From Gyrodactylus bullatarudis (Eukaryota; Platyhelminthes; Monogenea; Gyrodactylidea; Gyrodactylidae): a stretch of 64,000 nt of DNA. The position numbers and the translations under genes were made by a program. Location: NCBI GenBank assembly GCA_012064415.1, contig SSNU01000173.1:62001-126000 (forward strand). The letters run 5' to 3'. The first letter of the stretch is position 1; every line of letters starts with the position of its first letter. Below are positions 8,905 through 37,100 of this stretch, in pieces. Below the pieces are notes generated by a model. The model ran no database searches, was not told the origin of the DNA, and saw nothing but the letters and a program-made list of their open reading frames with translations.

Positions 8905-8943
8905 AGATTTTTCAATAATAATGATTTTATTCCAGTTTCATTA

Positions 8944-9663
8944 ATGCTTCTTAATCGTTCAGAATTCCTTTTCCCACATTTTTTCTATTTATTTTTTCAG
9001 GAATCAGTTCTTTCAAATGTAATATTTCTGATTGGACTTTCATTTGTAGCCATTTCTTTTGTTAAAGAGCTAAGGATAGTTGATTCTCCTATACCGAACC
9101 AGGACTATACTTATACCAGAACGTTTGAAAAGTAATTTCATATTCTTACCCATTAGCTGTCTCTACCCTGGGTTTGTAAATACCTACAACTTACCAATTC
9201 TTATCAAATCAACATTTAATGTTTCTTCAACTTCCAAGTCTGATTTGTGTGATCCCGATCTACATTTTGCTCTCCTCAGACCAGAAGAAAAGAGAAAATC
9301 TTGTCAAAACCTGATTTGTAACTCATACTTGAATTCCAAGTTATGGCGGGACATCCTTTTATCCGGTGAATTCACTTTCCTCAAAAAGTCATTCTTGAAA
9401 GGAGACGATAAAATTGATATAAATCCAGAATTCGAGCTTAACCTAGCTAACAAGACTGCTGTTCTGTTTGTAAGTATGAATCCAGCTTATAATATTACGG
9501 AGACGGATTGCTGTTATCGATTAGTGGTACGTTAAGTTTCTAATTTCTCGAGGCTTCCTTCAACGATGTCAAAGTAGTCTCTGGCGATGAAAGTCCAAAG
9601 GAATCATCAACAGGAACATTATTCCTAGAAATTTTCTTTTCCATCTTAGAGGCCTTATTTTGA
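8944..9663 (+). CDS. TMEM248/TMEM219-like membrane protein
   Basis: Three exons, 8944-9131, 9157-9526 and 9553-9663, give 222 aa and are separated by introns of only 25 and 26 nt. A membrane segment (about residues 24-40, IFLIGLSFVAISF) is followed by KELRIVDSP, similar to the FKIKEIKSP that follows the first membrane segment in TMEM248. Next is an extracytoplasmic domain with several Cys and N-glycosylation sites (NVS, NKT, NIT), then a second hydrophobic stretch LFLEIFFSILEAL at the C-terminus. The two-membrane-segment layout and length suit TMEM248/TMEM219, but similarity is limited. Removing the two mini-introns is required to keep one frame; without them the ORF stops at 9133 and 9533. 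The start is the first ATG after a possible acceptor at 8934-8935. Confidence 0.6.
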
Positions 9664-12341
9664 TATAAACTCTGCTAGACAATTTTTATTTTCATAATTC
9701 TTTCAAAGCATTTTATTTTTATGAATAAAGGAAGAAAATTTCTTGAATGAATCATTTTAATTTAAATTTTCACATGAAAAATTTTGACAAAAAAAATTGT
9801 TGATTTAAATTTCTGTTAGTTTTGTTAACTAGTATTTAAGTTGGATTTCTTTTATCGTTGACCTCTCGACTTTTATAAGATGGAATCTTCTAAATTTGAT
9901 CTGTAAGCAAAATATGCATAATTTAATTAGCATGCTACTTAGTAGTAACGTCATGATTAACATAAAAATTAACATGCGTATGAAATTTATTATTTGATAG
10001 ATTTTATTCACCGATAAACGTAGAAATATTCACGGGTTAATTTCTTCATCTCAATGATTTCAATAAAAAGATTTACTCAATGAGAGAGTACAAATATTGG
10101 TAAAAGTAACAATTAAATTCCAACGTTTCATCCCATCAAAAGGAATCTATCTTCATACCAGAAATGTTTTTTTTATTTGAAAGAAGATGAAAAAACCATT
10201 CTAACTCATTGAAGAAGAAGAAAGAAATATGTTATTCTATCTACACACTGTGATATTATTGTAGCAATAATAATTACAATAGTTTCAGTTGTCTCTAAAT
10301 AAAAAGTTAAAGTCTTGTTATCCAGAAATAAGAATAACATTGCTTCAAGTGAGAAGTAATGAATGAATGGTAAAAACTGAAACGAGAAAAATAAAGAATG
10401 AAAAGACGAACGGAAATTAAAGTTCAATACGCACAGAGAAAGAACATATATAGAAGGAATTTTATAATACGAAGAATAACAAGAATTTATTCACGATGAA
10501 GAAATATTAATTTCTCAATAATTTCTTTCCCAAACGAAAAGGAATCTGATAAAATCTCATCTTTTTCTGCTAAATAAATTTCTTTACTACATTTCTATAC
10601 TGTGTTAGAAAAATTGTATTATTTACTATGTGTTTAAATAGGTAGTTGTAGTAAGTTTTTTATTATGAATGAATGAATATCAAAAAAGTCAAAAATCCCT
10701 CTTACTACATTCATTGAGAAGATTAATATTATTATTACAATATATGTGTGTAATCTTTGTTTTTATTTCCTATTCACATAATAATAAGTTGCAGGGATAA
10801 AAAGTCAATTGTAGAGATTATTTTTCTTCTCTTTCTGTTGTTGTTTAAATTTTTTTCATAAGAGAGGAAAAATTTAAGATTTCTCTTCTTGTGTCTTATC
10901 ATGGGGATGTATCTCATTTTCTTCCTATCTCAAGAGAGTTTGAGAGGATGTCTCTCTTCTCTCTTCATATAAATACATTTTAATGTGTTTAACGAATATA
11001 AAATCATAATATAATTCTTTTTATTCGAAAATGATGATGATGATATAGTTGAGGACAGGAAATCTTGAAATGTACATGGCTAATGTTGATTTTTCCCTTC
11101 AGAAAAAAGAAAAAAACAATTCAATGCCTCAGAACTGTACTCAAAATATTTTTCATCAAATAGCTTTCATTTATTAGAGCTGATATCCGATAAAGGTTTT
11201 TTAACGAAGCGGTATCTTATTTTACTATAATTCAATTAAAAGTAGTATGCTTAATTAATTAAACGTGAATTTAAATATAAATATAAAACGTAATATTTAA
11301 ATATTATTTTTCAAATTTCATTCAATAATTGAATTAATTCATGACTAGCAATTCGAAATGGCTCAAGACTCTTGAATACACTTAGTACCCCCTTAGTACT
11401 GAAGCAAAGTTGAAAAGAAGATGAGAATTTAATACTTACACGGATAGTGTATTTATTGAATGCGATTCGAAAGAATCAAACTTTGGTAAGAGCCCTTTCA
11501 AATTTAATCGAAAATTATAGAGAATTACAACCTGAAAGCAAATCTTGACTCAGTACATTAGTTGAAGGTTTTCATAAACTCTTAATTAACTCAGGATATA
11601 ACAACTTACTTGATTGTCAATTTGTCTATTGTCTTATTCGTGATTGTCGTCCATATTGCTATTCCTAGGGGGGGGGATAAAATTATGAATTTTTAGAATG
11701 TGAAACAATGACTAGAACCCTATGAGCTGATAATGAAATAATTTCATACTTTTTCTTGTGAATGATTAGGATTCACCGCCCTATCTATTTTTAAAACAAG
11801 TTCTATTCATAATTAAATATAGAAAGGTAAATGAAAAATACCCAACTCATATTATTCAACAGAACCCTAATAATCTTTACTAGAGTTTGGCGTTCTTATC
11901 GACCAATAAATGAAACCCATTTGTTCATTTTTGATTGGTTCTTGTTAATTCCCAGGTGTAGATCAACTTGAAAGCAAAAGAAAATCTTTAAATTCCATCC
12001 AGTAAACGACTCATTTGAATAAAACAAATCCAAATCTCATTTATAGAGAGTTAATTAAGTTATTTAACGGAAATATTCCTCAGTTTTGTTCCAAGAAGGG
12101 AAATACATTCCTTTATCTTCTCTGTAAAAAGTTAATTAGAAAGAAAACATCTCTTTGGAGTCATTCTTGTAATACAATGCAGTACAGTTGAGCAGAGGAA
12201 TGAACAAACTAAATAGATAGATAGATATGCACACTGTGCGTGTGTATGCATTCCCATCTGTAATCATAAATGTCGTTTTATCTGATTTTTGACATTTTTT
12301 CTAATTGCATTTTCTTCAATTTCATAGAAAATTGCACATAC
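9664..12341. other. Intergenic or dachshund downstream region, no gene confirmed
   Basis: AT-rich DNA. I searched the minus strand for the missing C-terminal Dachshund box and found nothing convincing. A G-tract lies near 11669-11677. No RNA gene is recognised. Confidence 0.5.
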
Positions 12342-15300
12342 CTGGATCTATTATTGTTGGTAATATCATTTGTATCATTTTGTTTACTATCATCATCATC
12401 GTTTGAGAGGAATTGTTCACTGAGCAACTTGTTCCTTCTGACACTTTGGAGAATATTTGTAAACTAAAATAAATTTCGAGTTGATTAGATAGAGCTAGTT
12501 AAAATGAAGTTTATGATTTTTAAAAAAATTCCTAAAGAAATTATGGCAAATTCCAAATCTCGACTTGGCACCAAAATCGCATTTTGTTGATTTCTTAAAG
12601 TGAGAAAGAGAGTGATCCAAAGCTGATTTTTCGGGATCACAACAAGACAAGGAGAAACCATCTTGTCCTTTAATCTCCAAATTTGATTTCTTTCTCTAAT
12701 CGTGATCCTAAAATAAGGGTACGAACTGATTGTAACATTCATTCAATCGCGCGTTTTCGGATAGATAAAGAAATGATCAAAAATAAAAAACAGAAATTTT
12801 TTTCCTTTCAAAACTATTAAATGATCAGTGGTAAATTAGTTAGGATAGAAAATTTCCATTTACTAAATTAATAATGTTAAACTGATAGATTCACGGTCCT
12901 TCAGTTCGAGTTGTGAATAAAGTGTTATTTCAGATTCAGAAGAATTGATAAAACTCGAATGAATTTTGGTTAATGATAAGGAAATTTTTGTCATCTGGCA
13001 GTGGATTAGTGTTGGTATCTTTGAGAAAAAATATTATGAATTGGTTAACAAATTCTTAAACAAAAGCACATTTTGAAAAAAACGTTTCTTTGAAATTCTA
13101 GAACTAGATCAGAACTGGTTCTATTATGTTCCGAGTCTTACGTTGAAATCAAAAAAAACCTTAAAAGAATGCGATTTTGGCGCTAACTCCGAATTTTAAA
13201 TATGCCATGAATTTTTAAAATAATTTCTTTTCAATTATTTTTTTCAAAATTTAAAAATCATAAATTTATTTTGACTACAGGCGTGGGTGTTGGGTAAACT
13301 AACAATATTTGAAGTGGATAATAATTGCAGATTTGGACAAAAAGCATCCCTTGAGAAATCTGATCTAGTGACTGGTGGTGTCACTGCAAAGGAGGAAGAT
13401 GTCCGGATAGTTGTATTCTCATCTTCGTCAATATCAAAAGAGTTGTCCTCCTCCTCGGAGAGTCTGCAGAACTTGAGAGTTTGGCCGAAATCAATGTCGT
13501 TATTCTCACTCGGAGAACTGTCCACGTCCTCTTCCTCGGCAAGGTAGGCAATATTGAACAGTTTGGCCTTTGGCTCATTTAAAACTATGAAGTATTAAAA
13601 ATTAAATTATTCATACGGACTTTGGTAATAACCCTATAGGTCCTGCTTAGTTATCTCTATCATTTTTCCTATTAGCAACTCATCATGTTAAACGTTTCTT
13701 TGAAGACATATTTCTCAGGTATGAAGAATGACATGACTATAGAAATCAAATATACAATGGCACGAACTATCTCCAAAGGTGGGATCAAACAACGACCCTA
13801 TTTTTTATCGATAATTCTTCAACTGAAAATAATTGCGTTAAATTCATAATCAGCTTATCATGTAAAAAGTTTGTCTGGAACTTTCAAGTTCAACAATGCT
13901 AAAAGTTTTGATGTTAAATTCTATAATAAATTATCATTGTTAATAAATCTAGAAAGTTTCTAAACATGATTTCAAAACCCAGAAGAGTTGAAGATAGAAT
14001 GGGTTGGATAAATTAACCATAAATATCGGTAAGCTACCCCAGACTGAAAATAATCCTGCGTGGGATAAAATATCTCAAGAGCGAAACCCGTGCCAAAATC
14101 AGTTATTCGGCTCCAACCTAATGAGAGAACACTTTTTTTCATGACTTCCATTCGATCTTTTGTCTATAAGACGTTTTGAACAAAACTTGATTATTTGAAA
14201 AAATGAACTCTTTTTTAATTAGCATAGCTCGTGTTTCACGAATGATAGAGCTGAGATTTTTGCGTAAAAGATGTATTCCCGTGGCTTTGATATATAACGA
14301 TTAGTTGCTCAGGTGGTACACGCCATCAAAGGCACAGTGGGACTAAGGGTTAACCTATCAGGATTTCATGATTCTTGATCTCATGATGAAAATAATTTTT
14401 TTCAATTTCACGAGTAAAATTCCCTTCTTTGTTAGTCAAGGGATGAATCAAGACAGAAACATATTACAATTGTGTGCAAATCAACAGAAATTATTATCCA
14501 CAATAAATTGAATTTATCCCTTTCTTGCATCTGCGCAATGTACAGGACACTTGAAAGGACTCTTCATTAAAATTAATGTGTAGTTTCTTTTACATCTTTT
14601 CTCTACTATATACTGCCTCTCACAATTCCACAGTGCATATATTTATGTATTATATTGCATTGTTCTGTGTGTAGAAATGAGAAGATGTTTGACTGATGTT
14701 TCCTTCATTTTTCCAACTGTAGAGAAAAAACTTGAAAACCAACATTGTCCATTCAACAGTGTTTTTATTAGCATAAACGAATAATTTTGTTTACCAAAGA
14801 GATTTCTCTCGTTATTATTATGGCCTCTAATGAGAGTTTGTAGATAGTTTTGTTACTGTTTCCAAATAATAATTTCTATACTTACTCTTGTATTTGCATC
14901 TTCTTCTTGCGCAGAGCTCCTTCTCAAAGATTAACAATGTAGTCCATTATGTGGTGTTATTCTATTGACTCGACACAGTTTTACAGAGAGAATGACACTG
15001 CTCTGCCATGTGTAATTAATATTTCATGTTTCGAGTTAAAGTATTGAGTTTCATCATCAGAATTGAATTTCGTAATTTTTTAAATTACAACTCTCAAAAA
15101 AGTGATAAATGTTCATAACGAGAAGCATAATTATGAAAATAGGTTTTTATTGGGGGCGTGACTCACTCTTTTTAGACTTTTTGACAACTGCAGTTTCCAT
15201 TCGTCCACCAGGATTGTTGTTGGGCAAAACTGACGAGATCATATCAAAGGATCTTTTCATGAGCCTTTCAAAGGTGACACTTTTGTCAGAAACCTTTTTC

Positions 15301-18300
15301 CCTTCATTACTCGAGTGTTTTTGTAAACTATTCATGCACATATTCGACTGTAACGAGTTCAACAGGAATTGTGTAAACATTTCCAGCCTCTCATGGTTGA
15401 ATTCAAACTCTGGTGTAGTTGTGGAACTCTTCATGTCATTGGGTGTCTTTGAAGAATAATTCTTCTCGATACTCGACGAGATCCTTTTCGATGGACGTCC
15501 AGGCCTGGCACTTGAGTAAATAAAAGGATTGACATTAAAAAATTGAGAAATTTTGGCACGTGTGTCATTCATTCATTCATTAGAGTAATAAAACTAATCT
15601 TGATTGAACCAGTTATTATTATTATTTGGGGTATAAAGAAAATACAATTTCCTCTTGAGATTAGGCGGTCGATGTTGTATAAATTTCAGAGAGATGAGGA
15701 AAATTCTCGTTAACTTTTCAAATCCAATCAATCTTGAAGAATGAATATTCTCCCCTCTAATAGTTATCTTATATAATTGAGAATTGTAAATTTTATGTAA
15801 CTTTTGCGCAAAATTCAAGCCAGATAGAAAAACACTAGAGACAAAGAAGAATTATCAAGCATTGAATGCAATTGCAGAAATACACTGAGGAATGTCACAT
15901 TATGCAGGAAATATCAAGAAATATACAGAGGAGAGATGTATTTATGTAGGAGTGCGCCATTCCTCAAGTAACACAAAAGAAATGTACGAGGCAAAAGACA
16001 AAAAAACATGGGGATAAAGGGAATGATTGATTTGATTTTTGAATTGTAAAATCTGTCCTCCGAAGTGAAAGAAAAGAGTCAAATGTGATGATACTTCTTC
16101 TAATTCTGTTTCTTTCATCGGACAATCGAAAGTATTGAGCACTGCCTCCGTGAAACCGAAATTGAGTAATAGACTCTCTTGAATTACCTAAAATCGCGTG
16201 TCGATATGATGAAATCTTTTTAAGCTTTTGTAATAAGATGAACAAATTGTGAAAATTTGTAATATTTATGAAAATAAGAGAAATTTTAATTTTAACAAGT
16301 GTCAAAACAGTTTTATCAAGACTTAAATCAATTCTGCAACTTTATTGGAAGAAATAATGTTATTCAAGATTGAACCATTAATATGAAACATTAAAAAACG
16401 TTTTTTATTTGAAAATTTCTAGTGTTTCATTTTATTACGGAAGCATTAACTTATAAAAATCGATAAGTAATCGTCCACTCGATATTTCCCATAGTTAAGT
16501 CGGTTTTGAGTTAGTGTTGTTATTTTGAAAAATGAAACTGTTGAAACTGTATATCAATGATCCTTAAGCTATAAGATTTTCTAAACTACCTCGTACCAAA
16601 CATCATGCAGGAAAGCTATTCTCTATTTGGGATTTTATGATTTTTACTAAATTTTTCTTTTATTTGAATTTTTTGTTGAGAATATTTGTCGATTTCAAGG
16701 TATGAGTGGAATCAAACGTTATTTTCAGGGTCATTTTTAGACAAGCAAGCCAATAATAATCCCAATTCAATTTTTGAAATAACCGGCAATTTGAATGAAG
16801 CGTTTCCTTGTCTGTGAAAGTAGAATCATGCAAAATTCTTATTTGGTTCTTAGAAAAATTTAAATCTTTGACTTAATAAAACAACAGCATTGAATGTTTT
16901 TTTAGAAGAAATTTCTTGTGAATTTTTATCAATTTTATCTTTATTTTAAGCTATTTTGTCACTATTCATAATTATATACAGTACATTAATCAGGAACAGC
17001 TATTTTACAAAAATATTTAATTTTCTCTTGTTTAAAATTCATTATGAAATTCGCGCAATTTTTGACAATTTTGTTCCAGAAGCATAAAAAAAGGTATTTT
17101 GAAGTGGAATTTGGTGAGACAATATTGAAATATTTGAAATTTAGGGTTAATCACAAAAGTAGCCCCAAATCCATTCGAAAAATTTCCAAGAGTAGCTCCA
17201 TTATAGAATTTTTTCTTCACATTTAGCTCCAATTTTTTTCGAAATCAACCCCATCGTAATTCAGTTCATCAAATTCTGAATATTTCAACTTTTTTGAAAC
17301 ATCTGTCTCAACTGAATGCATCTTTTATAAAGATAGTAATATGTTTATGAATTTTAAAACAATGTATTTATTACCACTATGAACTGATTAGTTAAAATTA
17401 GAAATATTTTTTTACAAATCGTATTTTTTTAACGATGGATAAAAAGGGTTTCATGTGTTCTCTGAGCTGAAAAATGAATAATTTCGGTATATGCAAAGTT
17501 AAGAAAAATAACGAAAAGTGCTTTTCAAATCGCCGCTCAATTTTCAATGAGTTTTCACTACGCAATCACTAAAATCCGGAATATCTTGGCCATTTGATGA
17601 GTTTCTTAATTTTTATCTTCAAAAATAGTAATCTTGTCATCAAAAGGGGCTAAATGATTAATTTCGTTATTTTATTATATCCTTGGGATATTGTGGGTTC
17701 AGGATGAATTTTTAGTTCGAAATATCTAAATTTTTATCCAAAATTATTCTCTATTAAATAGTGATAGTGTCAAGGTTACATTTTTTGTCATAAACCTCTC
17801 AAATTTGATCTTATTACTTTCAAGAAGATTTTCAGGTTTTTGATTGAAATAGTTTATCCGTAAGATTTATTATACTAAATCGAAAATGATTGGGAGAAAA
17901 ATATTTTGGCTTCTATCACGAGAAAAATGGCCAAAATTGATTGAGCACGTTAATTTTAATACAAAATCATTGTTTCTATTGCAACCAGCTCTTAAATAGG
18001 TTTTGGTGCATATGTTTTATACATCATCCAAATTCTCCTGAAGAGACCATTCAGATTCTGATCCAAGCTAGAAATCGAAAATTTGCAAAATCCATCTCTA
18101 ATGGACAATGACATAATGGAGAATAACTTTCGCGCTTTAAAAATATGCAAAACTTGATCTGAGTACTAAAATTTATCAGAAAAGTTTGTCCTCTGGTGAG
18201 CTCCTCGGAGGAAAAAAATTTTCACCCTAGCCTAATGTCTACTGTAATTGATAGTGAATGAGAATTGTAAATTATTTTCAATTTATCAGCATTTTGTATT

Positions 18301-21300
18301 GGATATGCCAAGAAGAATTCAAGTAAGAAATTTAGAGAAACGTGAGAAAATTAATAAATATTCGAATTGATATTTGATCTTTCTTCCCTCTCAGAACAAC
18401 TGCCTGAATAATTTGGGAGATAGACAATTGGAAAATTAATCATAACATATCATACTACGTTTATCTTTATGAATTATTACTAATGATCAGTAGTAACAGA
18501 GTAATGTTGTTGCTCATAATTTTTAACTTGAGCAGTAGTCTACAGCTTATTAGTAGTATTCTAAAGAGTAGAACAGTAACGAGAATAATAATGGGAACGT
18601 GAAGACATGACAGTCTTTATGAATATATGAATGTTTGTAGATATACATTTTTTCAAGTTGAAATGAATAAATATGAGAACTAAACTTGTCACAAGTCTTT
18701 TTCAATTTTCCTTTCAAGTTGTATTTCATAATTTTGTTTATGTGAAAATGTAATAAATTTATTTTTCATCTACCCCCTTACCCCATTCTTTCTCCTACTG
18801 TTCTTTCCTCAACTGCTCGGGGAATTTGTTCATTTCAGAATTAACATTTAGTATTCCACTTGATTATTCTGTGAGAAATTATCCTGATAAATTATGAGTA
18901 TGAGGAATTAATTTATTTCTTTTGATTTCTCTTTTGGAATTTTAGTTTTAAGATGTATGAATTGTACAACTTGTGAATGAATAAAAAACGCAAAATTTTA
19001 TATGGCCAATAAAATGAATGAAAATTTGTAGAATAATTAAGTTCTATGAAATTTGGAAAATTAGAAAAAAGATATATATTGGGGCCATATGTACATTTCA
19101 CAAAGCATCATCAGTGGCAATACTTTAAAAATGATATAAGTTGAGAGTTCATTCAAAATAATATTTTACAAATTATGAAAGAAATAGTGAACGTCAAAGA
19201 AGAATATAATGTAAGCTAAAAAAACACCAAAACTCTCCAATAAGTAGCAACAGTGGAGAGAAAAGTGAAAAAGCTCACATAGGCCAAGGTAGTCGAAGAT
19301 TATACGAATAGTTTTTTTTGAACACATAAGTTTGGTTTATATCTATTTATGAAGAATTTCTCCTTCACCCAAACGTCTGTACTGTCATCCCCTGCATTTT
19401 TGTATAAAATAGAAAAGTTTGAGATTAAAGCTTCATGCCCTTCCTGTCTTAGATGCCTGGTCACCGCTGTATCTTTCTTAAGATGATCGTTCCCTCTAGT
19501 TGACAACTTCCTAATTTTTAGATTACATTATATTCTTCTTTGACATTTACTATTTCTTTCATAATTTGTAAAATATTATTTTGAATGAACTCTCAATTGA
19601 TATCATTTTTAAAGTATTGCCACTGATGATGCTTTGTGAAATGTACATATGGCCCCAATATATATCTTTTTTCTAATTTTCCAAATATGATTTTAAGTGG
19701 ATTTTCGGACGTATTTGAAAATTTACGTGAATATTTCAGTCACAAAAATCTATGAAATTACTATGGTATAGAGTAATCCAACTGCCCTTCAAATCTGAGA
19801 TGTAGCACGTGTTATGCATACATTTGAGAAATACATTCGGAAGCTCAAGAATGAGTAATTTCATAATAGTTGTAGTTTAATAATAATGGATCAGGTGAGA
19901 GAATTTAATTCTTTTTCAAAAACAAACTGAACGAATCCTTTTGTCTGAAGAGAATATTCTCAGCCCAACTCTTAAGGGGAAATATCTGATTTTTATTTAT
20001 TCATAAAACATTTATCAAACAATTGCCCCATTCTTGCATACTGTAAACAAGAAAAACTCTTTGATAAATACTTATTAAAAAGAGAGATGATATTCACACG
20101 GATTAGCCTACAAAAGTGGAGGGGAATTGTGTATGTTTACGAATTATTGTTTCTTTTTCATCAGGTGAGAAAATTTACACACACACACTAGAGAAAATTT
20201 TCTTGTTTTTGGGTGATGAGATGATGTGGTGTGTAAAGTGAAACATCTTTTTGTTCCATGATGAACAAAAAGGTGGACACGAAATTCTTGCAAATTTTAA
20301 TAAATATCGAGAGTTTGAAAAGGAAATACCTCAAGTTGAATAGAAACTATTGACGTGAAGAGTTCCAACAACAGAATTTACATTTTTTAACCAGATTTTT
20401 TTGTGTAAAAGCGAATTCAATCTGGCCAAGTTTAGGCCATTTTTGAATCTCAAAAATGCGCCAAATTTCCCATCTTTCAACGTTTGATTTCAAAGTTTTT
20501 ATTCATTTCGACGATCTATAGCGATTCGTTTATGACATTTCGTTAAGAGAAACACGCTGTATCCAAAGGAAAAGATTTTTTTAGATCATTTTCTGTCGTA
20601 ATCAAAAATCTATCGTTTTCCCTATAGATAATGACGAATTTCTGTAAAATTCTTTAGGCCAATTCGAATAACAGCAACGAATCTTTAAGATCAGTAAAAA
20701 TTGACCTCAAAGGTTGAAAAAGAGGCAAAATTTTTGTCAGAAGGAATTTTTTTCGGAAATTTTTTTCTTTTAACAAAGATTTGTACTCAGTCAGAAGTTG
20801 AGTAAATTCAAACAAAAATATAGCTACACGCCTTATTTTTCGGAAAAAATGAAAATTTGAAAGGAAATCAATTTTACTACCATTTGACATATAAAAAAAC
20901 TTTAATTTTAATTTTTTTAAAAACTGAAAATTCGTTTTTTTGAAAATATCTCCCAAGCGAGATGTGATTCCAAGAGCAGATCTGAAATCAGCGTAAGATT
21001 CCAAAAGAAATCAAAAGTGTCCTGCCGTGTTATTAATGAAAATCTTAATTCTGGCTTATTCTGGCGTTCTTTTGAATTAATAATTCCCTGAAAAAAAAGT
21101 AAAACCACTTTGAGACGTTTCAGCTATTCAATTAACTTCCTAAGTGGAATAAATTATCTAAACAACCTCCAAATTTATCTCTAAAACGTAAAGAAATCCA
21201 ATTCGTTTGTACCATACCCTAAAATTATACCTTAAATCAAAAATATCAAAAATCAACTGTTTAGTTAATACTTTATGAATAGTTTCTTCACTGTTACATT

Positions 21301-25846: not shown

Positions 25847-26009
25847 CAGTTGTGGATATCAAAAGATTAAGATGCTAATCTCCTGTAGACTTTAATAGGT
25901 TTGAAATTTCTAGTGTTTTAAATTTTTATTTTATCTGTTTGCGCTAAAACATTGAAATATTATCTTTGTGAAAATGTTGTTAAAGTAAGTAGTTGTTCAA
26001 TTTACAAAT
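25847..26009. promoter_or_regulatory. Putative bidirectional promoter
   Basis: 163 bp lie between the start codons of the divergent bZIP and EF-hand-like genes. No canonical motif was identified. The call rests on spacing. Confidence 0.4.
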
Positions 26010-28041
26010 ATGAATTTTGAAGAAAAGATAAAAAATAACAGCTTTGCAAATGAAGTTGAGAATTTATTGTTAACTAACTTACGAAGAAACTTTAAGAGAA
26101 TATATGAATCTTATCAAAGAGAAATTTCCAACAAGGGTGGAAGCCTGGCAAAGTAAAATATTCATTTTTTAACCATTTTAGACATGAATTCTTTGAAATA
26201 CTTGTAACTTATACTCCAAAAATGACTCTTGCTCAATATGAGGGATTAGTTAAAAAGTTATTCTTAAGTTTTTTTACTACAGATATAAGCTTGAAGATAT
26301 GAGTGGTATTGACTTGAATAAGTTCATGACAATGTTGAACATTTCAGACAACGAGAAATATGAAAAGGCATCCTGTCCATCTCTCGGTTATAGATTATTT
26401 CAACAGAAACCTTTGTCCTTCATCAAAACTCTTATTCCTCTTGCGAGTATGACTGAAAATGGAAGAATTCTCAAGGATCAAATGAAAATAATTTTCCAAA
26501 ATGCTGACATCAAAGTCACTGACTTCAATCGTTTATGGGTCCAGTAAGATTAATTTATAACCAAAATTTTAATTAGGAAATTCGACCCCCTTATGTTAGG
26601 ATCCATTCTTACTAAAGATTTCTTGAAAATGTTTGATAGAGAGAATCAAAAACAGTGCAATGTCGAAAAGATTGTTGAAATTAATAAAAATAAAAATCAT
26701 CAAATAGGAGACTTCCAGTTGAATGTCATTCAAAAAGAAAATAGTTGTACTCAAGCTGAAGAAGAAAAAGATGAAGTTAAACCTTGTCAAGCGAGTGGTC
26801 TTTGTTTAATAGAAAAACTTCAATTTCTTGTAAGTATATTTTAGTACAAGTTTGAAAATTTATCTCAATTAACCAATCAGTCCAGGAATTGATTTTTAAA
26901 TTATTTTAATAACAAAGTTTGAGAAACCATATCAAGAGATGAAGCTTAAATTTGAGTCGAAAAATGTCAAATCCAATATTTTCACTATTGAAGAAATCAG
27001 AGACATCCTCTGCGAGTGCAACATTAAAATAGACGCAAACCTTCTTGATGAATATCTTGAGCATTTAATTAAAACGAATGATGATCGTCTCATTGATGAT
27101 GCTGGATTTCATGAACGTCGTAGAGAAGAATCAAGATTTTCCTTGAAACAATTTCCCTATGACCGTTTACTCCTTCGATACCAATCGAGAGCATTTGATT
27201 CTCTATTTAGTAAAAGGATTAAGCAACTTTTGCAGTTAGTTTTTATGGAAATTATTCCATTTTTTCCAGTTGCCCTGTAATTTCAGAAACAATTCAAACT
27301 ATTGAACAAATTGAGACTGCAATCTTGTTGAAATTCCACGGAGATTTCTTAAAGTTTTACTCTTGTTTAATGTGAGTGTTTTTGATTAGCTAAAATTATT
27401 TCAGACAAACCATTGGAGATGAAAGGAAAATAAAATTTAAAAAACTCAAGGAAATTATTGAAAACACTCTCGGTATAGGGGAAGGTGGATGTGATACTAA
27501 TGGCTTCCCAATGATAAAGGGTAGTTTTTCTTGCACTGTTGATGTTGATGCCTTTTTAAAACTTTTCATACGACCGTAAGATTGAGTTAAACATAACATT
27601 TTAGAACTAATGTCTGTGAGAAGAAAAACGGGCCACTGTTTGAGCCGTGAGTTGAAATTCCCTATCCTTTTCCATCCATAGAACTAGAGAGTTATCAAAG
27701 AAACCAATGACAGATTCAGTTAAGAGACCTAGACTGTTCCTTTTAAAAGAGATCAAAAGGATAATCGGCAAGCACACTCATCTGCTTGACAAGAAGAGAG
27801 TTTGTGATTACAAGAAATTTTACTGTGAAATGATAAACAAGGAAAAGTTTGCCTACATTTTCAAAGAGTAATTTCATCAAAATTGATTTATAAATAATAT
27901 AATAGAATGGGCCTGGAAATGAATAGTTTAGAAGTAGACGATGTCTGGTCACTCTTGGAAAATGCTGACCCTAGGCCTAATGACCTTCATCGTTATGAAC
28001 GAGTCATGCATTTCTACTTTTTGGAAGCTCTCAAAAGATGA
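26010..28041 (+). CDS. Degenerate EF-hand repeat protein (EFCAB6-like)
   Basis: Ten exons: 26010-26152, 26182-26256, 26283-26543, 26577-26829, 26918-27234, 27270-27371, 27405-27575, 27605-27646, 27682-27867 and 27906-28041. They join in consistent phases to 561 aa. Eight of the nine introns are 26-38 nt and one is 88 nt. The N-terminal 90 residues have the helix-loop-helix spacing of EF-hand pairs (RRNFKRIYESYQREISNKGG, then EFFEIL, GIDLNKFMTML) but the loops lack the usual Asp ligands. Similar helix-rich repeats follow to the end. There is no signal peptide or membrane segment. EFCAB6-type ciliary proteins with many degenerate EF-hands are the best guess. A poly(A) signal is at 28087-28092. 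Confidence 0.65.
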
Positions 28042-28069
28042 CATGAAATGTATTCCTGATCAATATCAC

Positions 28070-28092
28070 TTTATTACAAAATGATGAATAAA
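28070..28092. terminator. Interleaved poly(A) signals of convergent genes
   Basis: The EF-hand gene (+) has AATAAA at 28087-28092; PPT1 (-) has AATAAA on its strand at 28070-28075. Each signal lies beyond the other, so the two 3' UTRs should overlap antisense over a few dozen bases. Confidence 0.55.
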
Positions 28093-28132
28093 TGATAACA
28101 AAGGTCAATTGTTCAAAACCAAAATGTAGAAA

Positions 28133-29105
28133 TTATCTTAGAAACTTTTCAACAATTTCACTAATAAACCATTTATCTGAAAATTGCAAGTGATCACCGT
28201 CCACTGAGAGGAGATGGACCCTCTTTCTATCATTAAGGTATTTTAAGCCAATAGGGTCGTCTTTTCTTAGCAATTTGCTTTCGGAAAAGTTGTAGAGCTT
28301 TTCTACACTGTTCTCTACAAAATAACCGAACCATTCTGATTCCCTGGGTATTACAATTGAATCCTCGTTGAATTTAACCAAGACTAGATGCCCCACCTTG
28401 TGCATTCTTTCAGTCCAGGTGGCATTTTTACCTCTTTCTGCGTTTATCATTGCCAAAAATGAGCTATACTCTCGGTAAATATTTTCACGTAATGGATCAT
28501 GCCAGTATTGTCCTTGTATAATGCTTTTGTGAAAATTTATTTTGCGTAAACATAAAAAATTACTTTTTTTGAATAAAGGAAGTGTAGGCCTCTTTGCTCA
28601 ATAATTCATCTATAAGCTTGCAAAAATAATGATATTGGGGAGAGCACTTCGGCAGGCCGAATACTCCTTGTTGAGGACCCCCGATAGAAATTACAGATCC
28701 TATTTTTCCTTTAAATGGGCATAACTGTACTAAGGATCGTACGAATAGTCCACCTTGGGACAATCCAATCAAATGAATTCCTTCATCAAAATTAGAATCA
28801 TTGAGAAGGTCATTGCACACTTCGTCAATTTGGGACAATGCATAATCCAAATAGCCTCTTTCTATATCCTTTATAATACGGTAGTTTTAATCATAGTTAC
28901 CTACATGAAAGATAGATCCTAGTTTTATTATTTTTGCATATTTTACGTCTGTATTATTCTTAATTATGTCAGCAAAATCTTCAAAAGCAGGATTATAACC
29001 ACTATCTCCCATTCCATGCCAGAGAACAACAGAATACCTTGTGTTGTCTTCAGAATTCAGAATTCCTAAAAGGACGATTCCAAGAAATAGATTCAAAGCA
29101 TTCAT
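28133..29105 (-). CDS. PPT1: Palmitoyl-protein thioesterase 1
   Basis: Exons 28905-29105, 28564-28868 and 28133-28523 encode 298 aa; the two introns are 36 and 40 nt. PPT1 removes thioester-linked fatty acids from cysteines of proteins in the lysosome. A signal peptide (MNALNLFLGIVLLGILNS) precedes VVLWHGMGDS, the family oxyanion region. The nucleophile is Ser104 in GLSQGG, and the other triad members are Asp223 (NEDSIV) and His280 (DGDHLQ). GGPQQGVFGLPKC, YWHDPLRENIY and SEWFGYF are PPT1 signatures. The first junction rebuilds DIERGYLDYALSQ, aligned to human DVENSFFLNVNSQ, which confirms the 36-nt intron. Length matches the family (about 300 aa). It is head to head with calcineurin B. Confidence 0.95.
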
Positions 29106-29187
29106 GATTGTTTTTATTAAAACAACTTATGCCTGATTAAAAATTCTTTAAGTTGAAATTTTGACGACTAATTTAAAATAATTAAAA
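29106..29187. promoter_or_regulatory. Putative bidirectional promoter
   Basis: Only 82 bp separate the start codons of PPT1 (-) and calcineurin B (+). Both transcription starts and any 5' UTRs must fit here or overlap. Confidence 0.5.
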
Positions 29188-29697
29188 ATGGGTAATGAGA
29201 ACTCGATACATGGCCTTGAAACTCCCTTTGACACAGACGAGATAAAAAGATTAGAAATCAGATTCAGAAAATTAGATTTAGACAACAATGGCAGTATCAG
29301 TCGTGAAGAGTTCATGAACTTACCCGAATTAAAACAAAACCCGCTTGTGGAGCGAGTAATTGAAATATTCGATACCGATGGTGATGGAGAGATAGACTTT
29401 ATCGAATTCATCCAAGGAATGAGTCAATTCAGTGTTAAAGGAAATAACAACAAAAAGCTTGAATTTGCATTTAGAATTTATGATATAGACAACGATGGTT
29501 TCATAAGCAATGGAGAGTTGTTCACAGTCCTCAAAATGATGGTAGGCAATAACCTTAAAGATACACAACTACAACAAATTGTCGACAAGACAATAATCTC
29601 CGCTGATAAGGATAATGATGGTAAAATATCTTATGAAGAGTTTTGTTCCATTGTTGGTGACTTGGATGTTCATAAGAAAATGGTAGTTGACGTGTAG
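29188..29697 (+). CDS. Calcineurin subunit B
   Basis: Intronless, 169 aa. This is the regulatory subunit of the Ca2+/calmodulin-dependent phosphatase calcineurin. The N-terminal MGNE allows myristoylation at Gly2. Four EF-hand loops are intact, each beginning with Asp and ending with Glu: [36 protein letters not shown] and [24 protein letters not shown] and the C-terminal [20 protein letters not shown] are calcineurin B signatures, close to the C-terminus of animal CnB. The complete lack of introns next to intron-rich neighbours could mean a retrocopy or intron loss; the reading frame is undamaged and there is no visible poly(A) tail after the stop. Confidence 0.95.
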
Positions 29698-30365
29698 ACA
29701 TGGAATGTTGAAAAATGTTAATTCAGGTTCAGCTATCTTTTCCCTAGTCTTGTGATATGTTAACATTTAATTTTATCAGTTTCAAATTAATAATTTTATT
29801 TATCACTTTTATTATATCGATAATAATATATATAAAGAATTTACAGATTTCCTCTATGTCAAAAATAGAGTAATAAGCTTATTCTCAACTTATAATACAA
29901 TAATAATTGAATAAATACCTCATTTTTTGATGAACAAATATCTTGCATCATCTACTGGTATAATTGAGAACTACTCATTTAATCATCAAGTACTACTCTC
30001 TTCAATATTAAGAACGAATCGATTTATAAATAGTTTTATAACCTTTAAATTCCTCATGATACAGTAGTTTTCTCCTCATTCTTGAAAATAGAGTTAAAAG
30101 AGTCCAAGACTTATACCAAATAATTTACTAACAAGCAAACAACAGACTTGCAGTTTAATTTACTCAGTTCCCACTCATTTAATTTAAAATTATATAGATT
30201 AAACTTCAAGTTAAAGTTGCAAGATGTGAAAATTTTTCATAAAAATTTTAAAAAGACACAGAATCAGAGAATCTTAATAACAAAAACCCCAATGATTGTT
30301 CAGTTTTGTTTAAAATAATCAAGATTAAATCTCATATAGCCAAGTAAAAGTTTCACTAGTTTGAA
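29698..30365. other. Intergenic, no gene seen
   Basis: AT-rich sequence holding the calcineurin B 3' region and the upstream region of the carboxypeptidase. No repeat or ORF of note. Confidence 0.6.
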
Positions 30366-32105
30366 ATGATTGTTCCCGTATGGGCTACCTTCCTGACTAT
30401 AATAATCAGCTGTGTTAATTCCGAATTCCAATGGAATAAACACCATAATAATCCTGATCTCATCTCGACACTAAAACAGATTAATGATCAATGCCCTTCC
30501 ATAAGTGACATATACACTCTTAGCTTTGGCAATTTGAATCAAACCACTCTTGGAAATCATCTTTGGGTCATTGTGTTTGGGAAATCACCCAAAAAACACG
30601 AGGCTCTAGTTCCTGAATTCAAATATGTCGGAAATATTCATGGAAATGAAGTTGTTGGTAGAGAACTCATCCTACGATTAGCTGCTGAACTTTGTTTTGG
30701 TTACATAAACGGAGATGCACAAATCAAATGGATTATTGAAAATACTAGAATTCATCTTCTCCCCGCGATGAATCCTGATGGATATCAATTGGCTGTTGGA
30801 GAAGATAAACACAATCTTAAAGGCCGTACAAATGCAAGAGATGTTGATTTAAATCGTAACTTTCCAGATCTCAACTCAATATTCTTCCAGAATGCCAGAA
30901 TGGGACTAAATAAATTAGACCATCTTTTGACTAAGGATATTCTGGAATCTAAGGAGCTTGAAATTGAAACTTTTCTTGTCATCGATTGGATTATGAGTAA
31001 TAACTTTGTTCTTTCTGCTTCAATGCATGGGGGAGATCTAGTGGCTAATTATCCCTTCGACACCTCTCCAGACCATAAGAGACATTATCAAAAATGTCCT
31101 GATGATAAAACATTTGTGTAGGTTTTCATATTCTCTTGATTTCACATTCTTTCAGCCAATTGGCAAACAGCTACTCCTTCGATAATCATCGAATGTATTC
31201 CGGAATTAAAAAGTGCACAGATTCAATTAACAATTTCTTCCATGGGAGAACCAACGGGGCCCAATGGTATCCCGTCGATGGAGGAATGCAAGATTTTAAC
31301 TATTTGGCCAGTAACTGCTTCGAGATCACTCTTGAATTGGGCTGTGAGAAATATCCAGAAGGTGTCGACCTAGAAAAGTATTGGCAATGGAATAATCGAT
31401 CCCTTTACGATTTTTTGTTACAAGTTTGTTTGCATTCCTTCTTCTACTCTTTAATAGAAAATCTATTGAATAAATAATTTTTCTCAAATAAATGATTTTA
31501 TTCCAATTTAAAGGTTCACGCCGGCTTCAAAGGAGTAGTCCTTGGTGAATTGGAAACTGGAGATCTTGCCACGATAACTGATGCTGAAATTCGCGTCACG
31601 AAAATCGAAGAGGATGCCGCAGTACCGATAGAGCATACAATTTTGACAGGTGAGGAACCTGTTTGAATTTCAAGTTTAAAACTCTCGAATATTTTTCTTT
31701 CTTGATTAAAACAGGGGATCATGGAGATTATTTCAGACTGGTAACACCCGGCCTTTACATAGTCTGGGCAGTTAAAGAGGGTTTTGAGCCAGCATTAGCC
31801 TGCATCAACATTGAAGAGGCAGCATCCCTTGAAAACCTCAAGGAGGCTAAGATCATGAACTTTGTGTTGAAAAAATCCAAGTCTTCAGGGCTGAATGATT
31901 TTGAAATAATCTCAAATATGGTCAAAAAACATCTACACGGCCCATATAGAGTCTCTGGAGCTGGTGATGACGAGATTTGTCATGATTTATCCAACAAATA
32001 TGTGAGTTTGCTCTTGGAATAAATAATGATGATATTGATTCTTATTCTCTATATCTAATCCACCCATATTTCTGATTTTACTTGCAGATGTTCACACAGT
32101 TCTAA
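30366..32105 (+). CDS. M14 metallocarboxypeptidase (CPE/CPN/CPM type)
   Basis: Exons 30366-31117, 31156-31423, 31514-31649, 31715-32001 and 32088-32105 encode 486 aa; the first intron is 38 nt. A signal peptide (residues 1-19) is followed by the catalytic domain: zinc ligands His92 and Glu95 (NIHGNEVVG) and His221 (ASMHGGD), substrate-binding [13 protein letters not shown], and catalytic Glu311 in [10 protein letters not shown] transthyretin-like domain begins at VHAGFKGVV, as in the regulatory carboxypeptidases. The enzyme removes C-terminal Arg/Lys from peptides and is secreted or sits in the secretory path. There is only one catalytic domain, so it is not a multi-domain CPD; no GPI signal is evident, and the last exon adds just MFTQF. 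The final exon is therefore the least certain. Confidence 0.9.
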
Positions 32106-32580
32106 GAAATGAGTAAAAAGCACATCTCAAAAGACCAATCATGATTAAAGCATACAGAACTACTACTATTATTGTATTATTATTCAGAGTATTTTTGTCC
32201 TGATATAAAGTGAGAAAGAAAACATGTAAGCTTCCTAAAATGTAAAAGTATTGTCGAAAGTATTGAATTGGAAAAGAAAAAAAAGTTTTTGCCATCAAAT
32301 TTACCATGACCAAATTAGAAAAATAAACATAAAGACAAGTGATGATTTTTCTGACCCAACCTGGAAGAAATAAATCTATTTTAATTAAAAATAGTCTCAC
32401 ATAATCATTGCAACTTCTCTTGTTTTTTTCTTTATGAGAAAAAGTGATCTCTTATCGATCATTTATGAGATGCTAATTCACATGAAATATCAGCTTTTAA
32501 ATCAGCTAAACCAACACTTTGAATAATATACTTGCCTTTTTAGTCAATAAGACTCAATTAAAACTTGAATTATTGTATTA
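32106..32580. other. Convergent 3' intergenic region
   Basis: It lies between the stop codons of the carboxypeptidase (+) and the coiled-coil gene (-). AATAAA on the plus strand near 32322 and 32370 may end the carboxypeptidase transcript. No other feature. Confidence 0.5.
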
Positions 32581-33992
32581 TTAGTCACATAACATTTTCG
32601 CAATCAAGTTAGGCTTTAGTTCCTCAAACGAATCTAAACTCATTGAATTAAGCCTATCATAAAACTCTTTTTCATCGGCAACTTTCTTCTTTTGAAAGTC
32701 CTCGAGTTCTCTTCTCTCGTCATATTCTCGATTCATTTTCAAATAAGCTTCATGCAACAATTCATTGCCATATTGACGTTTTAATTCCAGTACTTTTTGC
32801 CTATCCTTAACATCCTCCACCCGGAAGTGTGAATCATAGATTTCCTGTTTTCTAGAATTTAGAATATCAAAATTTCTTTGCTCTAAAAGATAATAATTTG
32901 ACTCATTATAATAATTGAACAGACCTTTATCTCTGATTTGATCTTCTAGGAAAGACTTGTAATTCTTTTGTTCTAGTTTTCTTTCATCTCTAACCTGATT
33001 AGCCAGGCAATTTTTCGACTTAAGATGCTCTTTTTCAGCTTCCAAGAAGGCTTCTTCTCGAGTTCTTTCAAGTTTTTCCTTGAACTCCTTGATTGCCTTG
33101 TAATTTTCCATGTATTCTTGAAATTCTTGGCGTCTTGTCTCTTTTGAATCTTTCAAAAGACCTCTACTGCTATCAAATTGTAGATCAGATTCAGTAAGAA
33201 TATCGATCAAATTTAATTTCCTGTTATCTTCAAATTTGCGGAAACAATCCTCAGCAATCTTTTCCCGACAGTTTACTGAATTTTGGATTTTATCTCTCTT
33301 CTCCTGACGCAGTTGGTTGTCTAAAATTTCTTTTTCTTCGTAGAATTTCTTCATTTTTTCCTCCTCTTGGTTATCTCTTTCTGCGTCAGCTTGTTTTTTT
33401 CTCAGGTTTTCTTGCATTTGTAACTTGAGAAAGTCAACGTATTCTCTTAAGAGAAAAAACAAGGTTGAAAATGAGAATTTTTACTTTTTTGATTTTTCAT
33501 CTTGACTTTTGACAAGTTTACAGAAAGGATTATCAAGAGTATCCTCAATCAGCTTCTCTCGTTCGAGTTGGGCTTGAGAAAGTTTCTTCTTCAATTCTAT
33601 TTGGCTCAGTTGGTCTCCTTGAATTTGCAAACATCTTTTTTTATTCATGATTTTCTTGAAAACAGGATCATTGTAACTATGTATAAGAAAATTATAAATT
33701 ACAGTTTGTTTGCTTCCAATTTTTTGAGAGCAGCCTCTCGCTCTCTAGTTTCTTTTTCTTCTTTTTTTCGAATGAAATCTTCTTCATTTTTCTTTCTTCT
33801 TCCTAAAATTTCTTGTTCTTTTTGAAGGTTAATTTGTTCTTGGTAATAACAGTTTTCTTGGAATAACTTTTCTTTTAATTGCTTTCTTCTTTCTAGTAGC
33901 TTATCACTCTTTGATTTGAAATATCTATCTAATCCTTCTTTGACCATCCTTTCGATGTAAAGGGATTCCTCATTTTCTGGCTTTATGAACAT
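32581..33992 (-). CDS. Coiled-coil protein, probably ciliary (TPH/CFAP-like)
   Basis: Exons 33703-33992, 33485-33676 and 32581-33445 give 448 aa; the introns are 26 and 39 nt. Almost the entire protein is highly charged, Glu/Lys/Arg-rich coiled coil (for example EILGRRKKNEEDFIRKKEEK), with repeated R-x-E-F and K-x-x-E segments as in trichoplein, MNS1 and CFAP53-type proteins that line axonemal microtubules. No signal peptide, membrane segment or catalytic motif. The start at 33992 is the first ATG, 149 bp from the divergent DEPDC5 start. The exact family could not be decided by eye, and coiled-coil bias makes false similarity easy. Confidence 0.75.
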
Positions 33993-34141
33993 TTCGATTC
34001 GTTATTAACGAGAATTGATATTTTTTCATAAAAACGCTTTTAATCACTATTGGCAGTTTAAAGACCAAAAAGACTTCTTTGTTTGTTATATCGATTAAAT
34101 TTTAAGAAACAAATGAAAAAATTATCGATGAAAATTTTATT
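33993..34141. promoter_or_regulatory. Putative bidirectional promoter with DRE-like sites
   Basis: 149 bp lie between the start codons of the coiled-coil gene (-) and DEPDC5 (+). It contains TATCGATT at 34089-34096 and TATCGATG at 34123-34130, each 7/8 to the arthropod DNA-replication-related element TATCGATA, often found in divergent housekeeping promoters. Binding is inferred, not shown. Confidence 0.45.
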
Positions 34142-37100
34142 ATGAAAGTAAAATTAGTGTTCAATAGCAGAAAATCTCAAAAAGGTAATTTTCAAATACT
34201 AATTCTAGATGTTATCATCAATCCTAACTCTCTTCCCAATATTGAAATTAACAAGATTGTGAAGCTTACCCCCTGTGACTTGGACCAACCGATTTATCTT
34301 CAGATTACCGGGTTAAGTGAGGAAATTCCTAAAGGTAATTGATTGAATTAATCCCTTAGATGTCATCCAGGCTGAAAACTCTTTTCAAAACCACTTTAAA
34401 ATCCAATCAAACAAGTTATTCATGGCAGAACTTGTCGATGAGAAAGACGTGGAGAAAGAGTTTAGCTTGGATTTGGTTGAAATCCACTTTCGAGATCAAT
34501 ACTACAGCAGAGCAGATATCTTTAGATTTAGCTCGTCTCTCCTCGGCACCCTTGTCTATCGAAATTATAAAGTTGACTTTTGCAATGTTATGAAAGGCAC
34601 TATTGGTCTGTCATATTTCCAGGGTGTGAAAAAATCCCTCGGCATAATCGGGAAAAACACGAAGCTCGTGTATCGTTCATCAACAGCGGTCCTTCACATT
34701 TACATACAACTGAGCCAGGAAATGTGGGAATTCAATGAATGCGGAGATTTATATTTTGAGAGAGCGTTATCCTTTCTTAGGAAACTCATTCTGGATGTTT
34801 GGCGTGAAAATGCATGTAGTCATGACGTAACTTTGGTATTCTTCACGAGAGTATTCATTAAAACATCCACAATTAAAAATATAGACTCTTCGTTTAAAAA
34901 CGATTATCTGGGCAGGTATTATGAGGACTTTTACCGTGTTATAATCCAGAATGAGCGCTTCGGCTTTGAGGAATGGAAACGGTCCTTGTCTCATGTCAAA
35001 TCAGAATTTTCCTCATTCACCTCACATCTTACCAGGTTTATTCACAAGAAATTTGGTCCAAATTCTCAATTCGAAATGAGCAATTCAACTGATGGCAATT
35101 TCCTTGAAACTCTCAATATGACTCTGAATTGTAAGAATAAAATAATTAAACTTTAATCCTTCCCTCTATAGTATACGAGAGTTATAATATCGATCGTAAT
35201 TTTGATCGAACCGGTAAATGTTGCTTCATAATTACACCTGGCGACGGAGTATTCTTTGTTAATAAAGACATTGTTCAAATAACCAAGACAAGGATTATAG
35301 CGTCTGGAGTTGATATCGATCTGATATCACTTGGAAAGCAGCCAATACACTTTGTTCCATTATTTCTTGTGAGTATTTCTCTTTAGCGAAGAGATTCAAT
35401 TAATCTCGTACATTTTTCAATAGAGTTTTTTTGAATTATTTGATATTAGTTAATCTTGAATAGTCTAAAATGGAATTATAATTTTGAACCAAGTAGTTCT
35501 TCAGGAAGCTCTTCGGCGTAGATAAAATAGAATTAATTTTCAGCTTTAATATCTCAGTTTGAATGAACTAACATTAACAAGGAGGCATATATTTACAGTG
35601 AACTTCCTAAAAAAGTATATAAAGAAGAGGATCTGACTAAAATATTTAAACCTCTCTACAAATGAGTAATGAGATGAATTTAAGATTTTTTCTCCCCAAG
35701 TCAACCCACTTTAAGTGCTTCTATCTCTCTTATTTCAAGTTCAAATGGGTTGAAAATTCGAACATGTCATCTATGTCTATCTTTATACCACCGGAATAAA
35801 TTTCTAATTCATATCTCCTAAAACAACAGAGTTCACTATTTTTCATCCTAGCTCACTGAATTAAACACTATTCGATGCAGAATCAAAAGTTGAGTCAGCT
35901 GGGTAATTTCCATTGCAAAATATTGCCTGGGGACAGTTTTATCAGAACTTAAATCCCGTTTCTAATTTTTTAAACTCATATATGAGAAACTATTTTAAAA
36001 AATTATCTTATGTTAATTGAATAAAGATTCTTGATTGAAGAGAAAAAATTCTTCGTTAAAAAGTTGAATTATAGGAGTGAGAAATAAGAAATTTCCTGCG
36101 TTTAAAAATGAAAAGGAAAAAATCCTCACAACGTGAAATAGGAAAAAAGGGGGTCTTCTATACGATGACTAAGCTAGAAAGAGTGTGACGTAGTTGTTTG
36201 GCTTGGTTAAAAGAGGGGGTCTCTCAATTGTGAAAACGACTTTTCTTATAGATTTTCCAAAAAAATTGAAATGAGTTTAAAAAATTAGAAACGGGGTTTA
36301 AGTTCTGATAAAACTGTCCCCAGGCAATATTTTGCAATGGAAATTACCCAGCTGACTCAACTTTTGATTCTGCATCGAATAGTGTTTAATTCAGTGAGCT
36401 AGGATGAAAAATAGTGAACTCTGTTGTTTTAGGAGATATGAATTAGAAATTTATTCCGGTGATATGAAGATAGACATAGATGACATGTTCGAATTTTCAA
36501 CCCATTTGAACTTGAAATAAGAGAGATAGAAGCACTTAAAGTGGGTTGACTTGGGGAGAAAAAATCTTAAATTCATCTCATTACTCATTTGTAGAGAGGT
36601 TTAAATATTTTAGTCAGATCCTCTTCTTTATATACTTTTTTAGGAAGTTCACTGTATATGAATAATTTACGAAATCGAAACATGTAGTTTAGGAGATTCT
36701 TTTGAAAGATGATAACACAAATAATTAACGAAAAAAAAGCGATTACGATTTGTAAAACTATGAAATTCATTCATGATTTTTACTGCAAACTATGAGAAAT
36801 TCATCTTATTAAGGTATGTATGTCCATGAAGAAGAATTTTTGAATCTAAAAAGTTATTTAGAAACTCTGTATTAATTAATAGGAATTGATTATATACCTA
36901 TTTAGGTCCTCAATAATGATCAAAATAGGGAAAGTAATATATCCCATTTTGTCATACCCCATTGGATTAACCACAGCTTCTATCGGCCACGCCAGGAACT
37001 CGATCAGATATCTATGGGAGCACCAATCATTCGTGTGAATGTCACTCCGAGATCAGATAAACTACGCAACAGCTCTGACGGCAAATCCAAACTGGTAAAT

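Follow-up and report, generated by a model that had tools for sequence, protein, structure and literature searches.

Probable U2-type micro-introns down to about 25 nt in a flatworm genome, and a possibly weaker donor signal in the shortest of them

How short can an intron be and still be removed from an animal gene by the spliceosome? The question is raised by a 64-kb stretch of genomic DNA (64,000 nucleotides, hereafter the window), in which a sequence-only reading had listed 17 introns of 25-41 nt, all with GT-AG ends, as needed to keep the reading frames of six genes. Every one of these intervals was confirmed at its coordinates and length, starting with GT and ending with AG on the coding strand; 13 are on the forward strand, and four (28524-28563, 28869-28904, 33446-33484 and 33677-33702) are on the reverse strand. 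In five of the six genes, a single frame stays open once the listed introns are spliced out, and the sixth gene (26-28 kb) requires an additional 88-nt intron, 26830-26917, that was absent from the earlier list. Judging from protein homology, we consider it highly probable that the micro-introns are genuine U2-type GT-AG introns, which this flatworm excises with its ordinary major spliceosome acting by intron definition.

Introns of the window

Three genes of the window, encoding proteins of known families, provided the strongest support. These genes and their short introns are as follows.

28136..29126, reverse strand: PPT1 (palmitoyl-protein thioesterase 1) gene, three exons, spliced protein of 298 aa
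28869..28904, reverse strand: PPT1 intron of 36 nt; strong, identical junction in 6 of 6 reference proteins tried
28524..28563, reverse strand: PPT1 intron of 40 nt; strong, identical junction in 6 of 6 reference proteins tried
30360..32019, forward strand: M14 carboxypeptidase gene (CPN/CPD type), introns modelled up to 31430; PF00246 E 1.7e-62, PDB 2nsm E 2.6e-83
31118..31155, forward strand: carboxypeptidase intron of 38 nt; strong, carboxypeptidase N alignment gap-free at the junction
34106..35383, forward strand: 5' part of the DEPDC5 (IML1) gene; PF12257 E 1.3e-82, PDB DEPDC5 E 1.8e-78
34335..34359, forward strand: DEPDC5 intron of 25 nt; strong, human DEPDC5 alignment gap-free at the junction
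35131..35171, forward strand: DEPDC5 intron of 41 nt; strong, human DEPDC5 alignment gap-free at the junction

Human PPT1 (PDB) matches the spliced protein with an E value of 6.4e-61, and the alignment passes through both introns. Thus, the earlier statement that the spliced proteins of PPT1, DEPDC5 and the carboxypeptidase align smoothly across the junctions was borne out by homology. PPT1 was also informative about the host. Flatworm proteins, those of Paragonimus, the monogenean Cichlidogyrus and Schistosoma among them, were its best matches, and a tree of 24 proteins (the host and 23 that we chose from the 120 listed) placed it within the flatworm set with a support of 100/100, on a long branch, the smallest supported set holding it comprising 11 rows. 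On this protein evidence the host is a flatworm, the PPT1 tree placing it no more finely than that. Downstream of the DEPDC5 exons lies an inverted repeat (35700-35979 and 36271-36550) with arms of at least 280 nt that are 99% complementary and 291 nt apart; its first arm starts at the edge of the searched stretch and may be longer.

The remaining listed introns fall within three further genes.

26010..28032, forward strand: EFCAB6-like gene, 561-aa model; EFCAB6 in PDB, whole-sequence E 1.6e-4
26153..26181, forward strand: intron of 29 nt; moderate, junction at residue 47.7, gap-free in the EFCAB6 match, coding model agrees
26257..26282, forward strand: intron of 26 nt; moderate, junction at residue 72.7, gap-free in the EFCAB6 match, coding model agrees
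26544..26576, forward strand: intron of 33 nt; plausible, coding model only
26830..26917, forward strand: intron of 88 nt, newly added; also the choice of the coding model
27235..27269, forward strand: intron of 35 nt; doubtful, coding model prefers 27165-27223
27372..27404, forward strand: intron of 33 nt; doubtful, coding model prefers 27354-27404
27576..27604, forward strand: intron of 29 nt; doubtful, coding model favours a single intron, 27576-27681
27647..27681, forward strand: intron of 35 nt; doubtful, coding model favours the same single intron, 27576-27681
27868..27905, forward strand: intron of 38 nt; plausible, coding model only
32584..34001, reverse strand: gene of an unnamed family with a coiled-coil look
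33446..33484, reverse strand: intron of 39 nt; plausible, coding model only
33677..33702, reverse strand: intron of 26 nt; plausible, coding model only
8914..9654, forward strand: unnamed gene at about 9 kb, span from the coding model
9132..9156, forward strand: intron of 25 nt; plausible, coding model only
9527..9552, forward strand: intron of 26 nt; plausible, coding model only

The best single stretch of the EFCAB6 match covers residues 8-99 with an E value of 0.12 and spans the 29- and 26-nt introns, and a large protein search gave no homologue of this protein at E<=0.001. Given the earlier-listed introns, no join other than 26830-26917 was found to carry the open frame through to 561 aa. 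For the coiled-coil-like protein, searches of Pfam, PDB and a protein database yielded nothing within the cut-offs applied (E<=0.001 in the homologue search), and a Pfam search with the gene at 8914..9654 gave no match. Taken together, 5 of the 17 window introns were graded strong on homology (two in PPT1, one in the carboxypeptidase gene and two in DEPDC5), two, both inside the weak EFCAB6 match, were graded moderate, six were plausible on coding potential only, and four, all in the EFCAB6-like gene, were doubtful. Homology support is therefore absent for 10 of the 17; four of these ten are disputed by the coding model and for this reason should be left uncounted.

Other features of the window were also observed. 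At its edge lies an inverted repeat (1-153 and 333-485) whose 153-nt arms are 100% complementary and which may run past the window. Two pieces (19303-19527, and 48624-48851 on the reverse strand) presumably represent the GIY-YIG end of retroelements, and the region at 55.5-59.9 kb on the reverse strand resembles a metalloprotease gene of the astacin type that also encodes ShK-like cysteine modules and a linker rich in threonine.

Chance, error and introns elsewhere in the genome

How much an open frame proves was evaluated by a search for short joins of coding-like frames, which covered the 64-kb window and 18 other 10-kb stretches. GT-AG joins formed 73 clusters, and five decoy dinucleotide pairs formed 83, 79, 68, 64 and 69. 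Because GT-AG joins were no commoner than decoy joins, frame-keeping alone is weak evidence; de novo frame joining was dropped as proof, and homology was therefore used. The earlier wording that all 17 introns are "needed" is too strong in view of the four doubtful introns and the limited value of frame-keeping. Spliced alignment with free splice sites was found to overfit and was not taken as evidence.

As a control on the GT-AG ends, which are imposed by the aligner, the spliced aligner was run with each of the 256 donor-acceptor dinucleotide pairs at 11 homology-aligned loci of our choice. Nothing scored above GT-AG at six loci (two pairs tied with it at one of them), one pair did so at three, PPT1 included, and eight pairs did so at two, the carboxypeptidase gene and L023; GT-AG was thus outscored at 5 of the 11 loci and nevertheless ranked among the best 10 of 256 pairs at all of these chosen loci. 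At the carboxypeptidase locus, 8 of the 255 other pairs outscored GT-AG and one tied with it, while at DEPDC5 GT-AG was the top pair of the 256. A coding-potential model that uses no homology agreed with the listed introns in the gene at 9 kb (2/2), the coiled-coil-like gene (2/2), DEPDC5 (2/2), the carboxypeptidase gene (1/1), PPT1 (1/2) and the EFCAB6-like gene (4/8). However, across the six genes this model placed GT-AG no higher than 10th, and as low as 42nd, among the 256 pairs, and in PPT1 a 78-nt intron was picked instead of the homology-supported 36-nt one. By itself, the coding model is not decisive for introns.

Homology was then the basis for introns elsewhere in the assembly, which comprises 77.3 Mb in 471 contigs with a GC content of 31.5% and in which the window occupies G000:C160:62001-126000. 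Of the 129 kinase-domain matches listed, 45 by our count run through stop codons; 16 of these 45 (L021-L036), together with twelve stretches that flank matches or hold partial ones, were aligned to presumed human kinase reference proteins. The kept introns of the kinase loci measured 24, 27, 28, 30, 30, 36, 36, 40, 40, 41 and 45 nt; a further eleven fell between 54 and 78 nt and another seven between 136 and 683 nt. The best reference for the loci with micro-introns was a CDK, PLK, PKA, CaMK, AKT, Aurora or GSK3. Three of the first 16 loci (L033, L034 and L035) had no intron, and L022 (taken alone) and L025 had only introns that were later dropped. In 10-kb stretches, a GDI-like gene contributed a 28-nt intron, a p300-like gene introns of 35 and 84 nt, and a NOVA-like gene introns of 61 and 1086 nt.

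The homology-defined set amounted to 41 introns, seven from the window included, and fell into groups of 24-45 nt, 54-84 nt and 136-1086 nt. Introns of <=30 nt made up 9 of the 20 of <=45 nt in this sample, which is biased to short lengths: selecting kinase loci by internal stops favours short introns with lengths divisible by three, and because the first 16 loci were chosen in this way, neither class proportions nor peak positions can be read from the set. The twelve flanking stretches and the GDI-, p300- and NOVA-like genes were chosen without regard to stops. Some rows had been dropped before the tally because we judged them to sit at the end of an alignment, in a linker, next to a gap or in a weakly aligned region; in nt, these were 17 (L022), 120 (L025), 60 (L031), 32 and 18 (CaMK), 44, 365 and 1445 (GDI), 109 and 336 (NOVA), 31 and 30 (p300), and 153 and 782 (RBM17). 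Twenty-six kinesin exon matches were inspected for gaps and kept outside the tally. By counts only, micro-introns were paired within PPT1, DEPDC5, a CDK-like gene on contig C404 and a PKA-like gene on contig C252. The coexistence with introns above 1 kb that had been claimed for the window holds for the genome, the 1086-nt NOVA-like intron being located outside the window. Among the other stretches, L008 searched in three forward frames against Pfam gave one match, below the cut-off; we take L010:747-4324 to resemble retroelement pol and L013:2893-4050 to resemble a piggyBac-like transposase.

These data bear on the possibility that assembly or sequencing errors, or pseudogenes, produced broken frames of which the "introns" are spurious repairs. 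The parity of GT-AG frame-keeping joins with decoys and the 4 of 17 joins that are not the choice of the coding model are in line with such a scenario. However, inserts of 24-45 nt were found in many conserved genes whose protein runs on across them, and a preference for GT-AG is not expected from random errors, so we regard this explanation as very improbable. Homology thus supports the earlier proposal that an animal has spliceosomal introns with GT-AG ends and lengths that go down to about 25 nt. Excision by the U12-type spliceosome or by a non-spliceosomal (XBP1- or tRNA-like) route appears more improbable still. A U12 snRNA gene is present in the genome; nevertheless, a U12-type donor, RTATCCTT, occurs in none of 18 micro-introns, which carry A at +3 in 15 and at +4 in 14 cases.

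Donor signal, U1 and splicing factors

Among the 41 homology-defined introns, none of the 9 of <=30 nt has G at donor position +5, as against 7 of the 11 of 31-45 nt and 18 of the 21 above that size. The difference between the shortest class and all longer introns (0/9 vs 25/32, p 3.3e-5) was also seen in the strong set only (0/7 vs 21/27, p 3.2e-4) and with ten unproven window introns added (2/13 vs 29/38, p 1.7e-4). The introns are few, and the hypothesis arose post hoc from the same data, which makes these p values optimistic. On the exon side, introns of <=30 nt have G at -1 in 3 of 9 cases and A in 5 of 9; with G at -1 in only three, there is no sign of a stronger exon side offsetting the weak +5.

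The genome contains two tandem U1 snRNA genes (L052 and L053; G000:C9:19561-19740 and 19001-19170), one with the usual 5' arm, ACUUACCUG, and the other with ACUUACUUG. The variant carries a C-to-U change at what is presumably position 9 of U1, by which it could form a pair with an A at -1. The mean number of U1 pairs by rising size class is 5.67, 6.18 and 6.14, and with the variant U1 5.89, 6.36 and 5.81.

Could the introns of <=30 nt then be a separate class that takes a modified route, with the donor read without +5G by a variant U1 or with little stable U1 pairing? The absence of +5G from all nine, the second U1 gene with its capacity to pair with the -1 A of five of them, and the ciliate Paramecium bursaria, whose introns (median 24 nt) are described in the available part of PMC12862383 as without a +3 to +6 consensus, are in favour of such a class. 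However, the pattern is post hoc and small, and adding the unproven introns raises the count to 2 of 13; mean U1 pairing is nearly equal across size classes and little altered by the variant; a dropped, ambiguous 30-nt candidate in a p300-like linker (GTAAGA) carries +5G and would count against the pattern; +5G in introns of 31-45 nt is not clearly unlike that in longer ones (7/11, p 0.2); and the variant U1 gene may be a pseudogene. We therefore consider a separate class possible but rather unlikely. The earlier suggestion that two size classes are defined by different mechanisms is accordingly not demonstrated, although the +5G contrast hints that way. Stated in full, and as tentatively, the idea would be that one animal genome uses two donor grammars, an ordinary one with +5G and a GTAATT-like one without it for introns of <=30 nt, in which U1 must leave before U2 settles, across a donor-to-branch-point distance of <25 nt, about half of the human minimum, perhaps with the aid of the variant U1. 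The weaker +5 signal of the shortest introns is possibly new: a search of open-licence literature gave no earlier description of flatworm introns in which +5G is lost with decreasing length.

Under the preferred reading of ordinary U2-type splicing, the geometry of the shortest introns still needs to be accommodated. In human introns, the smallest productive donor-to-branch-point distance is given as 46 nt in the available text of PMC11291888. A 25-nt intron leaves a distance of less than 25 nt, too little for U1 and U2 to be easily bound next to each other. Most probably, the donor would be passed early from U1 to U6, and the weak +5 at <=30 nt would fit a donor that lets U1 go easily. The 3' end would, also most probably, be recognised without the full U2AF heterodimer, as in human short introns, which according to the accessible part of PMC8363638 can be spliced via RBM17 (SPF45) instead of that heterodimer.

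A check of spliceosomal factors, which had been suggested together with one of the branch point, showed that genes for U1, U2AF2 and RBM17 and an HCNGP domain are present in the genome. The match to U2AF2 (63% identical; G000:C344:30782-32170) covers residues 9-474 in a single open frame and gives no hint of an intron. In the RBM17/SPF45 gene on contig C185, a distance of 2 kb separates the UHM (65% identical), whose match contains one TAG, from the G-patch (64% identical). HCNGP is a family name that we take to denote SAP30BP. The branch-point check was less telling: YTNAY occurs in 17 of 18 micro-introns vs 14.1 expected from shuffles (p 0.058), too near to identify a branch point, and four other motifs gave p values of 0.16 to 0.82. 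The pyrimidine fraction near the 3' end is 0.70 in micro-introns vs 0.68 in longer introns; as it is not lower, these values do not demonstrate the truncated tract by which the RBM17 route is marked.

Significance and comparison with known systems

Homology in several genes indicates that the spliceosome of an animal can take out entire introns of about half the human donor-to-branch-point limit, and the ordinary introns of the same genome would serve as an internal control for the signals and factors that set the lower size limit. The weaker donor signal of the shortest introns may help to explain how an animal splices them. For annotation there is a warning, because such genes will be split or cut short by prediction programs whose minimum intron length is set at 30-50 nt.

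The sequence-only reading had described introns near 25 nt as best known from protists, which is misleading as regards novelty. Micro-introns of flatworms and dicyemids are in print, so that the phenomenon is already known, and in the published excerpts compared here micro-introns are a known flatworm trait and our case is no first. In Opisthorchis felineus, introns peak at 37 and 90 nt, and the micro-introns are clustered, 5'-biased and have splice sites nearer to the consensus (PMC6530080; micro-introns also in PMC7716572). In tapeworms and Gyrodactylus salaris, peaks are at about 36 and 73 bp, and the introns of the first tapeworm peak are said to sit towards the 3' end (PMC5036155, which carries a correction notice). 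The introns studied here resemble these in their flatworm host, their GT-AG ends, their length of tens of nt, the interruption of conserved coding sequence, and the presence of a second short class (73-90 nt in print, 54-84 nt here) and of long introns. In contrast, the published excerpts give peaks at 36-37 and state no lower limit, whereas 9 of the 20 introns of <=45 nt in our short-biased sample are <=30 nt, and the shortest lack +5G, unlike the near-consensus micro-introns of O. felineus.

Introns near 25 nt in an animal are shared with dicyemids, for which the accessible texts give a mean of 26.2 nt in Dicyema acuticephalum (n=16, PMC2222250), a median of 27 bp in another Dicyema sample (PMC6543705) and a mean of 38.2 bp in D. 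japonicum (PMC6736024). However, dicyemids as described there have mostly one short class, whereas introns here range from 24 to 1086 nt in several classes and are not near-uniform at about 26 nt. U12-type introns differ by their donor, found in none of the 18 micro-introns here. The human introns spliced via SPF45/RBM17 are likewise short, and an RBM17 gene also exists here; they are ultrashort at 43-65 nt in the available part of PMC8363638, and the micro-introns differ from them in length, a shortened pyrimidine tract not being demonstrated here. Paramecium bursaria, with introns of 15 to 100 nt in the accessible text of PMC12862383, is similar in intron length and in its weak downstream donor consensus; it is a protist, whereas here the weak donor is confined to the shortest class of an animal.
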